64,000 nt of DNA from Massilibacillus massiliensis (GTDB lineage Bacteria > Bacillota > Negativicutes > FLKF01). The stretch is taken from contig NZ_LT575483.1 of NCBI RefSeq assembly GCF_900086705.1, positions 1,383,534 through 1,447,533 of the forward strand. Direction: 5' to 3'. The position numbers were made by a program, and so were the translations under genes. Shown piece after piece: positions 21,863-47,422 of the stretch (position 1 is the stretch's first letter; each line of letters opens with the position of its first letter). The notes beneath the pieces were generated by a model that was not told where the DNA came from, did not search any database, and worked only from the letters and a program-made list of their open reading frames with translations.

Positions 21863-21923
21863 GCAAGCAGGTGCTACGAAAACGGTAGGCGGTTTACCTT
21901 CCCCAATGAAATGGGGTGAGCAT

Positions 21924-21995
21924 ATGGGAACTATGGAGCTTTATGTATTGCTAATACTTGCTACAGGTTACATTATCGCAATAAAAAAGAATTAA
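21924..21995 (+). CDS. 23-codon hydrophobic peptide, probable type I toxin
   Basis: ATG at 21924 reads MGTMELYVLLILATG and on to a basic IAIKKN end: one membrane-spanning stretch with a charged tail, the usual form of Fst/TxpA/holin-like type I toxins. A second ATG lies three codons in. The GGGGTGAG ribosome site is partly paired in a CCCC-aatgaaat-GGGG hairpin. The leader contains GGCGGTTTACC, and a GTTTACC direct repeat lies inside the convergent antisense unit, as in par/Fst loci. The gene sits between R1 copy D and a deleted R2 copy, behind the response regulator gene. Toxicity is inferred from architecture only. Confidence 0.6.
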   Translation: MGTMELYVLLILATGYIIAIKKN

Positions 21996-22085
21996 CCGCC
22001 CCTCCTAGCCAGAGTTTAGCGATTAATCTTTAATGATTTCCCTATATCTTTTGTTAGGTGAACCGTTTACCAGTAGCACCTTTCA
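21981..22085 (-). ncRNA. Convergent antisense RNA, probable antitoxin of the 21924 peptide
   Basis: A strong minus-strand promoter at 22093-22121 would start an RNA near 22085 running toward the peptide gene. A stem TTAATCGC/GCGGTTAA followed by TTCTTTTTTA would end it near 21983, giving about 100 nt. It overlaps the toxin stop codon and 3' UTR, and its GGTAAAC is complementary to GTTTACC in the toxin leader. No open frame of note is present. Confidence 0.55.
21992..22026. terminator. Shared bidirectional terminator of the convergent RNAs
   Basis: TTAACCGC (21992-21999) pairs with GCGATTAA (22019-22026). T-rich sequence follows on the minus strand (TTCTTTTTTA) and more weakly on the plus strand (TCTTTAATGATTT). 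Confidence 0.6.
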
Positions 22086-22092
22086 TATAATT

Positions 22093-22121
22093 ATCATAAT
22101 ATCAAAAGATTATACTGTCAA
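22093..22121 (-). promoter_or_regulatory. Promoter of the antisense RNA
   Basis: On the minus strand TTGACA, a 17-bp spacer and TATGAT, a near-consensus sigma-A promoter that faces the peptide gene with no coding region behind it. Confidence 0.8.
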
Positions 22122-22131
22122 GGTTTAAAAT

Positions 22132-43351: not shown

Positions 43352-43380
43352 TTTACAAACCAGATTAAATTCGCTATAAT
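43352..43380 (+). promoter_or_regulatory. Promoter of the antisense RNA to the 30-codon peptide
   Basis: TTTACA (43352-43357), 17-bp spacer, TATAAT (43375-43380): a near-consensus plus-strand promoter with no gene on the plus strand behind it. Confidence 0.75.
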
Positions 43381-43400
43381 ATACATATACTATATATACC

Positions 43401-43428
43401 AAAAACGCCCTGCGCTAACAGGACGTTT
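43401..43428 (-). terminator. Terminator of the 30-codon peptide mRNA
   Basis: On the minus strand AACGTCCTG and CAGGGCGTT form a 9-bp stem (one wobble) with a 6-nt loop, running into a T5 tract. Confidence 0.8.
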
Positions 43429-43443
43429 CGGTTGAATGCAGGA

Positions 43444-43536
43444 TCAGGTGAACAGCAACTTTAGGATAAAAGCCGCAAGTGCTATTACCTTCACAAGTGC
43501 CGCGTCGCTGATGCAAAAGTTCACGCGAAACTTCAA
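43444..43536 (-). CDS. 30-codon hydrophobic peptide, probable type I toxin
   Basis: A TTG start at 43536 lies 6 nt after AGGAGGG. The peptide begins MKFRVNFCISDAALVK and continues with a hydrophobic helix (VIALAAFILKLLF), a single membrane-spanning cationic peptide. It has its own promoter (TTGACG-18-TATAAT) and terminator, a leader starting with a strong hairpin, and a fully overlapping antisense RNA. That arrangement is typical of type I toxin-antitoxin loci. I do not recognise the peptide as a named family. Toxicity is inferred. It lies between the rfbB operon and the broken fcl. Confidence 0.6.
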   Translation of the reverse strand: MKFRVNFCISDAALVKVIALAAFILKLLFT

Positions 43537-43560
43537 AGATATCCCTCCTGTATTCAGTTT

Positions 43561-43589
43561 ACAAGCACGGTAGGCGCCGTGCTTGTTTT
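43561..43589 (+). terminator. Terminator of the antisense RNA; also 5' leader hairpin of the peptide mRNA
   Basis: ACAAGCACGG (43561-43570) pairs perfectly with CCGTGCTTGT (43577-43586) around a 6-nt loop, followed by TTTTAATT on the plus strand. On the minus strand the same hairpin is the first structure of the peptide mRNA. Confidence 0.8.
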
Positions 43590-43590
43590 A

Positions 43591-43620
43591 ATTATAAACC
43601 CCATATTTTCCAATCGTCAA
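43591..43620 (-). promoter_or_regulatory. Promoter of the 30-codon peptide gene
   Basis: On the minus strand TTGACG, an 18-bp spacer and TATAAT, giving a start near 43584 at the base of the leader hairpin. Confidence 0.75.
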
Positions 43621-43629
43621 TATATGAAG

Positions 43630-43659
43630 ATAGGACCTGCATTCGCAGATCCTATCTAT
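43630..43659. terminator. Hairpin at the 3' end of the broken fcl gene
   Basis: AGATAGGA and TCCTATCT form an 8-bp stem around a 14-nt loop; the fcl stop codon lies in one arm. T-rich sequence follows on the plus strand. Confidence 0.5.
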
Positions 43660-44480
43660 TTTTATACCATGCATAAGTTTTCTCAATCCCTGCCAATAAA
43701 TTGACTTTAGCTTTCCAGCCAAGGCTATGTAAATAGCTCACATCATTGATCTTCACCGGAGTACCATCCGGCTTGGTCTTATCAAAGACCAGCTCACCTT
43801 CATAGCCCACAACCTTTGCGATGCTCTCCGCCAGCTCCTTGATCGTCACCCCAACACCGGTTCCTATATTTACGATCTTGCTTTGATCATACGTATTCAT
43901 CAGATACACACAAGCCTCAGCCAGATCATCTACAAACAAAAACTCACGAATCGGTGTCCCCGTACCCCAAATCGTTACACTCGGTGCATGATTGATCTTC
44001 GCCTCGTAGAATTTGCGAATCAAAGCCGGAAACACATGACTCTTTTCCAAATCAAAATTATCATTGATCCCATACAAATTCGTCGGCATCACCGAAATAT
44101 ATTTCGTTCCATACTGCTGATTATACGCCTGACACATCTTGATCCCCGTAATCTTCGCCATGGCATAGGCATCATTCGTCGGCTCCAAAGCACCTGTCAG
44201 GAGGCTCTCCTCCTTAATTGGCTGCTGCGCCATCTTTGGATAAATGCAAGAACTGCCCCAAAATAATAGCTTCTTCACACCATTCACATACGATTGATAA
44301 ATGATATTCGCCGCAATCATCAAATTCTGATAAATAAACTCCGTCACAGCACAGCCTCCCAGCGAATCAAATCCATATCCGCATGGTACGCCTATCCCCT
44401 TGCTTTTCTAGCTCTGTCACTAACGCAGAACCCACTAAGTCTCTGTGCCCAGCTACATAAATTTTCGCTTCTTTTCCCAT
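43652..44480 (-). pseudogene. fcl: Broken GDP-L-fucose synthase (fcl) copy
   Basis: The first 27 or so codons ([20 protein letters not shown]...) read from 44480 and match the intact copy at 46499, then the frame is lost and reaches a TGA. Homology resumes at about 44347 ([17 protein letters not shown]) and runs to the normal C terminus (AWYKNR). Roughly 130 bp present in the intact copy, coding the SAAKVGGIG region, is missing. The catalytic YAMAKITG remains, but the NAD-binding half is lost. About 250 bp (43713-43963) is identical to the intact gene, implying recent duplication or gene conversion. Confidence 0.88.
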
Positions 44481-44538
44481 CGCATTACACACCGCTATCA
44501 ATATAGATAATTTGCACAATCGGCAAAATTCTTACACT

Positions 44539-44892
44539 TCACCATTCTTCCGATAACATTCTTAAAATATTATCCTCAAGTGGTGGAAGCTCCTTCACGA
44601 CAACTTCCCAAATCATATCATAGCTAATCCCATCATAATCATGCGTCACAATATCTCTTAATCCTGCCATTTGCCGAAATGGAATATCGGGAAACTTTCT
44701 TCTTAAAAATTCTGGAATGCGCTTACTTGCCTCTCCCATATTCTCTAATGCTTTATATACAGCATACTGAGTTTTAAAATCGTCTATAAAATCTATAAGA
44801 GACATTCCTTTAGTAAATTCCTTTACAAATTGCAAATCCCTGTAAATATCTTCAACATAATCTCGATATTCGCGGTTTTTCTTTCTACTCAT
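44539..44892 (-). CDS. hepT: HEPN toxin-like protein, HepT/DUF86 family
   Basis: The 117-residue all-helical protein has the HEPN RNase motif Rx4HxY in GLRDIVTHDYDGIS near residue 80, preceded by the typical NMGEASKRIPEFLRRKFPDIPF. HepT proteins are RNases kept inactive by a partner MNT nucleotidyltransferase that adds AMP to the motif Tyr. Here the ATG overlaps the stop of that partner by 4 nt, and the conserved Tyr is present. The pair sits between the broken and intact fcl copies. Confidence 0.88.
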   Translation of the reverse strand: MSRKKNREYRDYVEDIYRDLQFVKEFTKGMSLIDFIDDFKTQYAVYKALENMGEASKRIPEFLRRKFPDIPFRQMAGLRDIVTHDYDGISYDMIWEVVVKELPPLEDNILRMLSEEW

Positions 44893-45197
44893 AGGTAGTG
44901 AACCTCTTCAAGAATACGCTTACCAATTCTAGGTTTCAGCGCCTTTTTAGATACCAAATCAACTCTTATGCCTATTTTTTTACTTAGCTCATATTTTAAA
45001 TCGATAAACTGAAAAGCACTGATTTGCTTACTAAAATCAACTAAAATATCAACATCTGATCTTTTAGTTTGCTCATTTCTAACATAGGAACCAAACACGC
45101 CCATTTCTGATATATGATATTTATCGACCAAGTAATTTTTCTCCTGTTCTAAAATATCCTTAATTTGATTAATATCCAATTTCATTACTCCAGACAT
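44889..45197 (-). CDS. mntA: MNT-domain nucleotidyltransferase antitoxin
   Basis: The ATG at 45197 (MSGVMKLDINQ) lies 7 nt after GGGGAGG and is chosen over an in-frame start 21 nt upstream. The protein of about 102 residues has the minimal nucleotidyltransferase signature GSYVRNEQTKRSDVDILVDF (GS...DxD) near residues 39-58. It would AMPylate the HepT partner encoded directly downstream. No second acidic block beyond the family minimum is apparent. Confidence 0.87.
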   Translation of the reverse strand: MSGVMKLDINQIKDILEQEKNYLVDKYHISEMGVFGSYVRNEQTKRSDVDILVDFSKQISAFQFIDLKYELSKKIGIRVDLVSKKALKPRIGKRILEEVHYL

Positions 45198-45334
45198 AAG
45201 CTCGCCTCCCCTATACACTTTAGACTTCCCAGCTCAATCTACAATTAACATATTAAAAACTATATTCCACCCTTATAAAAGCATAGCACACACGAATCTT
45301 CTTCAAGTCATCGTGATTTTACGATTCCTTTTAC

Positions 45335-45632: not shown

Positions 45633-46299
45633 TTATTTATTCAACCGCTCACTTAACGCTTCTAATTCTTTAAAATGTGTAGCAATGATCCGATTACATA
45701 TCTCTGTAGAAATTTCTTCTTTATAAATATGAGAAGTTAAGTTTCTATCGTTTAAAATTTGCACCCATATTTTGTCATTTTTTTATTAAACCATAACTAA
45801 AAGCTTCTTTCATTACAGCTTTTGGACTATTAAGCTCAGCAAATCCTTGATCCAGCAAATATTCACGTGTCGCTTTCCACCCAAGTTCAGTCGTAAATTC
45901 AAAACGCTGCATAACCCCATCACGAACAACGCTACTATTAGAATTTTCTAGCTCAACTAGCGCTTCACCAAGTCGTTCAACTGCACTTTTAAAATTATGT
46001 AATTTATTTGATAATCGTTCCATAATGACAATTCCCTCTTTAGTTATAGTATTTAGCAACTTTTCATCTGTACTGGGATTGATAAATACAACATCAAACT
46101 TAAATAAGGTATCTAGCTTATCTATATCATTCATAAAATTAGCTACTTCTAGGTTTGATTGGCACTTACTAAAGATTGCTAAGTCAATATCACTACTACT
46201 TCTAAAATCACCTCTTGCTCGCGATCCAAACAAGATCATTTTATAAATATTAGGGTAATTAAAAGCAATCATTTTAATCTTGTCCATTAATTGCTCCAT
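45633..46299 (-). pseudogene. MNT-HEPN fusion protein interrupted by a 1-bp frameshift
   Basis: The first 174 codons from 46299 give an MNT domain (GSRARGDFRSSSDIDLAIF near residues 26-44) fused to an HI0074-type helical substrate-binding/HEPN domain (FEFTTELGWKATREYLL). The frame stops at SYGLIKK. Removing one A from the A7 run at 45779-45785 restores NDKIWVQILNDRNLTSHIY and an uninterrupted C terminus to 45633. The HEPN motif RNLTSHIY (Rx4HxY) lies in the lost part. It may be a pseudogene, a phase-variable gene or a sequencing error in a homopolymer. Confidence 0.8.
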
Positions 46300-46498
46300 C
46301 CATCTTCGCCCTCCACACTATACTCAATTGGCATTATTATACCACAATACTAGTAAAAATCTTTGTAAATACGTTAGACCTTTTATTTTATTTAAGCATT
46401 TTATTCTTACAAAACAAGAAACGTAGTTTTTAAATAAATATCAAAAACTACGCTTTTCACTGTTGGTCTTTTTTAAGTATTTTGAGGCTTGACAAGCC

Positions 46499-47422
46499 CT
46501 AGCTATTTTTATACCATGCATACGTTTTTTCAATTCCTGTCAACAAATCCACTTTCCCCTTCCAGCCAAGGCTATGTAAATAGCTCACATCATTGATCTT
46601 CACCGGAGTACCATCCGGCTTGGTCTTATCAAAGACCAGCTCACCTTCATAGCCCACAACCTTTGCGATGCTCTCCGCCAGCTCCTTGATCGTCACCCCA
46701 ACACCGGTTCCTATATTTACGATCTTGCTTTGATCATACGTATTCATCAGATACACACAAGCCTCAGCCAGATCATCTACAAACAAAAACTCACGAATCG
46801 GTGTCCCCGTTCCCCAAATCGTTACACTCGGGGCATGATGCAGCTTCGCCTCGTGGAATTTGCGAATCAAAGCCGGAAACACGTGACTCGTTTCCAAATC
46901 AAAATTATCATTGATCCCATACAGATTCGTCGGCATCACCGATATATATTTCGTCCCATACTGCTGATTATACGCCTGACACATCTTAATCCCCGTAATT
47001 TTTGCCAAAGCATACGCATCGTTTGTCGGTTCCAAAGCACCCGTCAGGAGGCTCTCCTCCTTAATTGGCTGCTCTGCCAGCTTTGGATAAATGCAAGAAC
47101 TGCCCAAAAATAACAGTTTCTTCACACCATTCACATACGATGTATGAATAATATTTATCGCAATCATCAAATTCTGATAAATAAACTCCGCCGGCGTAGT
47201 AGAATTCGCCCCAATTCCACCAACCTTTGCGGCTGACAGAAATACATACTCCGGATTCTCCTCAGCAAAAAATTTACGCACAGCCGCCTGATCAATCAGA
47301 TCCAATTCACCATGCGTCCGCGTGATAATGTTCGTATATCCTTGTTTTTCAAGTTCTCTGATTAAAGCTGATCCCACTAATCCTCTGTGACCGGCTACAT
47401 AGATTTTTGATTTTTTATCCAT
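46499..47422 (-). CDS. fcl: GDP-L-fucose synthase
   Basis: The 307-residue SDR has [19 protein letters not shown] at the start, [13 protein letters not shown] near residue 60, [18 protein letters not shown] near 105 and the catalytic YALAKITG near 136, then [10 protein letters not shown]. It converts the GDP-4-keto-6-deoxymannose made by Gmd (51603) to GDP-L-fucose. It lies about 4 kb from gmd, separated by four glycosyltransferases, and a broken copy lies 2 kb downstream. Confidence 0.95.

Follow-up and report, generated by a model that had tools for sequence, protein, structure and literature searches.

A probable class-wide family of type I toxin-antitoxin loci in Negativicutes, with full antisense overlap, a predicted self-inhibited mRNA and exchangeable peptides

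Comparative analysis of a locus at positions 43352-43620 of a 64,000-nucleotide stretch of the Massilibacillus massiliensis genome (the whole of which is referred to here as the window) points with good probability to a type I toxin-antitoxin family that is new and spans the class, in which a toxin mRNA would be fully overlapped by an antisense RNA, the mRNA would be self-inhibited and the toxins would be exchangeable. By sequence comparison, a common layout, selection on the coding region, RNA covariation, a conserved antisense promoter and unrelated peptides carried on one frame are observed. A sequence-only reading of the same DNA had proposed a candidate type I locus with full antisense overlap, and the comparative evidence supports this as the best reading; that the locus is multicopy had been overlooked.

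The elements named in that reading were all found in place. On the minus strand, an ORF of 30 codons with a TTG start (43444-43536; residues MKFRVNFCISDAALVKVIALAAFILKLLFT, a type A peptide) is preceded at a distance of 6 nt by the Shine-Dalgarno sequence AGGAGGG (43543-43549), which forms part of a leader, GAATACAGGAGGG (43543-43555), that is conserved in all copies and lies in a stem of the predicted fold. The toxin promoter on this strand, TTGACG-18-TATAAT (43620-43591), agrees with the consensus at 11 of 12 positions and has a counterpart at the same place in the copies, most of which carry TATAAT as the -10 box. The toxin mRNA terminator (43400-43430, minus strand) is a stem-loop with a T-tract that is near-invariant across all copies, its 9-bp stem (with one G-T pair) being followed by T5 at about 43400-43427. 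Between ORF and terminator, an anti-Shine-Dalgarno region, ACCTGATCCTGCATTC (43434-43450, minus strand), lies at and after the stop codon and is predicted to pair with the leader. On the plus strand, the putative antisense (antitoxin) promoter, TTTACA-17-TATAAT (43352-43380), likewise scores 11/12 and occupies the same place in most of 64 loci. A hairpin with an 11-bp stem at 43561-43586 would have two roles: on the minus strand it would form the 5' end of the mRNA, and on the plus strand, where it has a T-rich tail and is followed by TTTAATTATA, it would terminate the antisense RNA.

When the ends of the two RNAs are placed from conserved promoter to conserved terminator, a toxin mRNA of about 187 nt (43399-43585, minus strand) and an antisense RNA of about 206 nt (43387-43592, plus strand) are predicted. 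By the coordinates of promoters and terminators, the complement of the entire predicted mRNA (43585-43399) is contained in the predicted plus-strand RNA, in line with the antisense RNA of about 205 nt over the whole mRNA that had been proposed from the letters alone. Both RNAs are predicted to fold much more stably than their shuffles (z -5.25 for the antisense RNA and -4.37 for the toxin mRNA). A second hairpin with a T-tract in the antisense direction can be read at 43629-43664 (plus strand) and is probably a back-up terminator for the antisense RNA; most copies have a hairpin with a T-tract here, which in three of them (c1, c2 and c6) includes the toxin -35 box in its 3' arm, and other families show similar hairpins before the toxin promoter.

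With the 301-bp locus as query, the window's own genome yielded 14 other copies at E<=1.8e-13 plus a short remnant, and a peptide profile added one more copy (C6:2961835), giving 15 intact loci, one locus with a frameshifted ORF (c14) and the remnant (c15). The copies are dispersed among ordinary chromosomal genes, with argH, fabH, recD2 and rfbB among their neighbours, and share one order of parts: toxin promoter, 5' hairpin, GAATACAGGAGGTG-like leader, hydrophobic ORF of 28-30 codons and terminator, with an opposing TTTACA-17-TATAAT promoter beyond the terminator in nearly all of them. Similarity between copies begins at about the toxin promoter and ends at the -35 box of the opposing antisense promoter; since it stops at the two promoters, the conserved unit is the pair of opposed transcription units.

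For 64 loci, the antisense promoter was scored in the sequence that follows the stop codon, a region outside the models used to find the distant loci. A score of at least 9/12 was reached in 53 of the 64, compared with 23.9 in shuffles and 19 on the control strand, and at least 10/12 in 38, compared with 8.4 and 2, respectively. The promoter is nearly always located 84-106 nt from the stop and is usually nearer the consensus than the toxin promoter, so that the antisense RNA should be in excess. The complementary antisense RNA gene that is looked for in a type I locus is thereby seen at the level of sequence. In a group of loci from two genome families (L115-L122 and L143-L147; f5 and f14), both promoters resemble TTCTAA-N16-18-TAWAWT instead of the TTGACA type, perhaps reflecting another sigma factor or a shared regulator.

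These data bear on the simplest alternative, in which promoter- and terminator-like sequences happen to surround a spurious ORF. Promoter-like sites arise easily in AT-rich intergenic DNA, and eight were counted in 1.4 kb (shuffles 3.8 +/- 1.6), of which the two opposed promoters are the best two; every element, however, is conserved in dozens of loci. It is conservation, more than the consensus matches by themselves, that excludes chance: 14 further copies were found, 15 intact loci keep the ORF and most of the 64 loci have an antisense promoter at an almost constant distance from the stop. This explanation, to which a vanishingly small probability is assigned, was already refuted by the homologues.

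Several loci have lost parts of the unit. The standard antisense -10 box is absent from c3 and c7, with a possible replacement upstream in c3; c7 has lost the toxin -10 box as well, and the degenerate locus L211 has lost both its terminator and its antisense promoter. Such paired losses in c7 and L211 are what would be expected if an unguarded toxin is not tolerated, two cases being too few for a test. In G001, a genome of another family, a type B locus without a stop codon and a fragment are found; a lysine riboswitch (Rfam RF00168, 108.5 bits; L052:612-783) is located on the contig of that locus.

Some copies lie beside duplicated pieces of genes. Copy c7 abuts an 82-codon C-terminal fragment of argH, at a junction close to the site of its lost antisense -10 box, and the intact argH stands beside c2 (the regions concerned being L044:3914-4436 and L039:1476-3288). 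In the window, a 300-bp direct repeat with 96% identity (43651-44519 versus 46498-47422) represents a truncated, broken duplicate of a GDP-L-fucose synthase-like epimerase gene, the intact copy of which is at 46499-47422, and the 43352-43620 locus is located at the 3' end of the truncated copy. Duplicate units may arise along with pieces of neighbouring genes. In the same part of the window, two adjacent small genes at 44539-45218 resemble, from their translations, a HEPN/minimal nucleotidyltransferase pair, and a similar nucleotidyltransferase-like ORF is present at 45775-46299.

The peptides are 28-32 residues long and mostly cationic, with a hydrophobic stretch of 17 residues, and are thus small (<60 residues), conserved and hydrophobic, as type I toxins are. 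Type A, with the consensus LKFRFxLEIEGTVLVKVVALIAFILKVLFT, occurs in ten copies in the window's genome, including the 43444-43536 locus, while type B (like MQLEFGKLKLAISSKFILALAALFEFCR) occurs in five intact copies and the frameshifted one. Among nine type A copies of 30 codons, differences fall on the three codon positions as 283/175/376, with a median dN/dS of 0.48; the median for type B is 0.35. By these substitution patterns, the ORFs are under purifying selection. The peptide frame is open in every intact copy, and loss of that frame from homologous loci, which the sequence-only reading had named as grounds for giving up its proposal, was not observed among the intact homologues; apart from one antisense frame of type B that is also open, every other frame is interrupted in many or all of the copies.

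A strong, conserved antisense promoter and conserved structure are also compatible with an antisense RNA that is itself the working part, for example as a small RNA that targets other mRNAs in trans, with the ORF being secondary. This explanation is considered very improbable, given that purifying selection acts on the ORFs, which are exchanged for other intact ORFs instead of being lost, and that the Shine-Dalgarno sequence and its lock are conserved.

The structural evidence concerns the 5' hairpin and the predicted lock on the ribosome site. In 14 sequences, nine of ten counted pairs of the 5' hairpin show changes on both sides; both-sided change cells number 45, against a shuffled mean of 12, with no single-sided changes and no G-U intermediate. 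Such an absence of single-sided changes is expected if folding is needed on both strands, because wherever one strand has a G-U pair, the opposite strand has an A-C mismatch. We infer from this pattern that the hairpin must fold in both RNAs, at the start of the mRNA and in the antisense terminator. The loops of these hairpins differ, with 14 distinct sequences among 15 copies, and it may be guessed that they help to keep each antisense/mRNA pair specific.

The leader GAATACAGGAGGTGA is predicted to pair with the sequence at and just after the stop codon, and a closed mRNA is predicted in all copies. RNAalifold applied to alignment A1 did not recover this long Shine-Dalgarno stem; as indels displace the stem in such an alignment, it was evaluated by duplex energies with swapped partners. 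Across 45 loci, cognate duplexes average -14.57 kcal/mol compared with -12.87 for swapped partners (p=5e-5), a difference also seen separately in the window's own genome (p=0.0026) and in other genomes (p=1e-4); for type A alone, the cognate-versus-swapped co-variation is not significant (p=0.17). The predicted probability that the Shine-Dalgarno sequence is unpaired rises from 0.17 in the full mRNA to 0.33 without its 3' end (69 loci, p=7e-7) and, at the 43352-43620 locus, from 0.05 to 0.38, with the mean for the window's genome barely shifting (0.29 to 0.31). These models thus predict another type I feature, a ribosome site hidden in the full-length mRNA. Within the ORFs, type C sequences maintain a small internal hairpin through third-position changes that occur in pairs (columns 12 and 36: GC 16, AU 10, GU 2, broken 0), and the type D group has hairpins of its own, one pair of which has changed on both sides.

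The search for the paired-promoter layout in other Negativicutes, which had been suggested by the sequence-only reading, showed it to be conserved across families. A covariance model of the 5' leader, R1, built on the cleaner alignment subset A7, detected the unit at E<=1e-8 (its E-values being rough) in 35 genomes of 12 Negativicutes families; loci found in this way have the leader by construction, and only features outside the leader count as independent evidence. The peptide profile likewise finds the unit across the class. In a phylum sample of 398 genomes, only the window's own genome reached the R1 threshold, and a 21-base leader pattern searched over 84,980 species matched 12 stretches, all from Negativicutes, with Sporomusa ovata, Lucifera butyrica, and Selenomonas and its relatives among the carriers. 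Weak peptide matches that turned out to be fragments of genes were discarded, and so were L214-L218, which were weak RNA-model matches ahead of long genes.

Within the window, R1 matches only 43534-43589, consistent with the earlier remark that the locus shares nothing with a second candidate near 21.9 kb. The latter (21900-22125) comprises a small ORF, MGTMELYVLLILATGYIIAIKKN, on the plus strand and a TTGACA-17-TATGAT promoter on the minus strand at 22121-22093; lacking an R1 match, it represents a different frame, and no match was obtained in Pfam, NCBIfam or PHROGs.

A single frame carries peptides of type A, type B/C (pattern M-x-x-E-T-K-x-F-x-L-T-V-S and variants) and type D (MWISPRVIVWLIIAITIILLKPLAITIWLR and relatives), together with two singletons (L195 and L212). 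Profile comparison gives probabilities of 1.2% for D versus B/C, 0.7% for D versus A and 8% for A versus B/C, so at least three of the families on the frame appear unrelated by this measure. Type A is carried by the window's genome and by a locus of another family (L171), and in 379 class genomes each of the 15 type D matches follows immediately after an R1 match, with no type D peptide seen outside the frame in that set. The identity of the 3' module is 0.77 within a genome for equal and for different peptide types alike, and between families it is 0.65 for the same type and 0.67 for different types, over a shuffled background of 0.58. Frame identity therefore tracks the genome, not the peptide, which suggests peptide exchange or gene conversion of the frame, with other histories being possible.

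Two further explanations must be weighed against this distribution. The unit could be a selfish repeat, mobile or gene-converted, whose toxin-antitoxin activity serves only its own persistence, an idea that is compatible with the preferred reading and finds some support in the dispersed copies, in sequence homogenised within a genome whatever the peptide, and in the partial gene duplicates adjoining c7 and the 43352-43620 locus. However, viral contigs gave no match to the leader pattern or two peptide profiles, plasmids gave none to a type A peptide and phages none to a type C peptide; the flanks are ordinary genes without transposases, and the unit ends at its two promoters with no element termini. 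A mobile-element origin was rejected on the basis of these negative searches and ordinary flanking genes, and the selfish explanation as a whole is regarded as improbable. Somewhat less remote, although still unlikely, is a non-toxic regulatory membrane peptide under antisense control, which would modulate a membrane protein or act as a signal. Small membrane peptides without toxicity are common in bacteria. Nevertheless, unrelated peptides in one frame that share only size and hydrophobicity are ill suited to a specific protein partner, 15 copies are present in one genome, and a self-closed mRNA together with a full antisense RNA would be a heavy guard for a harmless peptide.

Under the type I reading, we infer transcription of both units, toxicity, RNA-RNA repression and 3' processing, and the following mechanism can be proposed. 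A short mRNA would encode a membrane peptide of 28-32 residues, presumably toxic when over-made. At full length this mRNA would be self-inhibited by its 5' hairpin and by pairing of the Shine-Dalgarno sequence with the anti-Shine-Dalgarno region at the stop codon, and it could presumably be translated only once its 3' end is trimmed or in a window while it is being transcribed. From a promoter on the opposite strand just beyond the mRNA terminator, an antisense RNA of ~200 nt would be made over the whole mRNA, ending at the hairpin with which the mRNA begins. It would pair full-length with any opened mRNA, blocking translation and exposing the duplex to an RNase III-type nuclease. If antisense synthesis failed, the opened mRNA would be translated and the peptide would reach the membrane, by analogy with known type I toxins, which are membrane-associated (PMC8309996). 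The conserved unit is the RNA frame, and the peptide within it would be exchangeable.

A broader proposal, the odds of which are judged to be about even, is that this class-specific RNA cassette acts as a general holder for interchangeable toxic peptides, being self-inhibited, silenced by full-length antisense RNA and homogenised in each genome regardless of the peptide inside, with ORFs swapped between frames; the hairpin required on both strands and its varied loops would ensure that every antisense RNA acts on its own mRNA. Because it is the regulatory frame that is conserved, and not the putative toxin, a single RNA model detects the family throughout the class. Should toxicity be confirmed, about 70 natural variants could be used to ask what makes a short peptide toxic, how cross-talk is avoided among 15 similar antisense pairs in the same cell and whether the mRNA is activated by 3' processing.

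According to a 2025 study, type I loci are known only from Proteobacteria, Firmicutes and Tenericutes, and this apparently narrow range is blamed on searches that start from the features of known loci (PMC12390103). Consistent with the earlier remark that no named family could be recognised, the window gave no Rfam match at the gathering score and eight related loci gave no relevant one; the peptides had no family match in Pfam and NCBIfam (0 at E<=10), and PHROGs, PADLOC and PDB sequences yielded no relevant match. Full-text searches of open-licence literature on type I toxin-antitoxin systems together with Negativicutes or Sporomusa gave nothing relevant, and single members may already have been listed elsewhere.

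Fst/Ldr, TxpA/RatA and BsrG/SR4 share with the present loci a convergent small mRNA and antisense RNA, a small membrane peptide and an antisense promoter downstream of the toxin gene (PMC4147584). The Gram-positive type I loci described up to a 2014 review, these included, all overlap at their 3' ends (PMC4147584), whereas here the predicted overlap is complete and the terminators are separate; Pfam and NCBIfam gave no match to the toxins Fst/Ldr, TxpA and BsrG. The likeness to Ibs/Sib of E. coli (PMC4147584, PMC8309996) lies in a short hydrophobic peptide, several dispersed copies per genome and an antisense RNA over the ribosome site and the entire coding region: Sib overlaps ibs (PMC4147584), and the promoter and terminator coordinates predict the same here. 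In contrast to Ibs/Sib, the peptides have 28-32 residues instead of the 19 of IbsC, Rfam and peptide-family searches indicated no membership, the mRNA is predicted to be closed on itself as well, and the frame holds unrelated peptides. A non-translatable primary transcript has been described as a hallmark of type I loci, and in AapA and hok mRNAs the ribosome site is hidden by pairing with the mRNA's own 3' end (PMC6733600). AapA/IsoA of Helicobacter (PMC6733600) accordingly resembles the present loci in a 5'-3' long-distance lock that hides the Shine-Dalgarno sequence, here predicted, and in a cis-overlapping antisense RNA, several copies per chromosome and structure conserved between loci. 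It differs in belonging to another phylum and in that the antisense RNA would here cover the whole mRNA and have a hairpin in common with its 5' end. The peptides here gave no family match in the libraries used. Activation at the 3' end, demonstrated for AapA, is here a prediction: over all loci the models release the Shine-Dalgarno sequence on 3' trimming, but weakly in the window's genome. With no family membership found in the libraries, the Negativicutes loci would thus appear, by analogy, to combine a topology like that of Ibs/Sib with an mRNA lock like that of AapA/IsoA.
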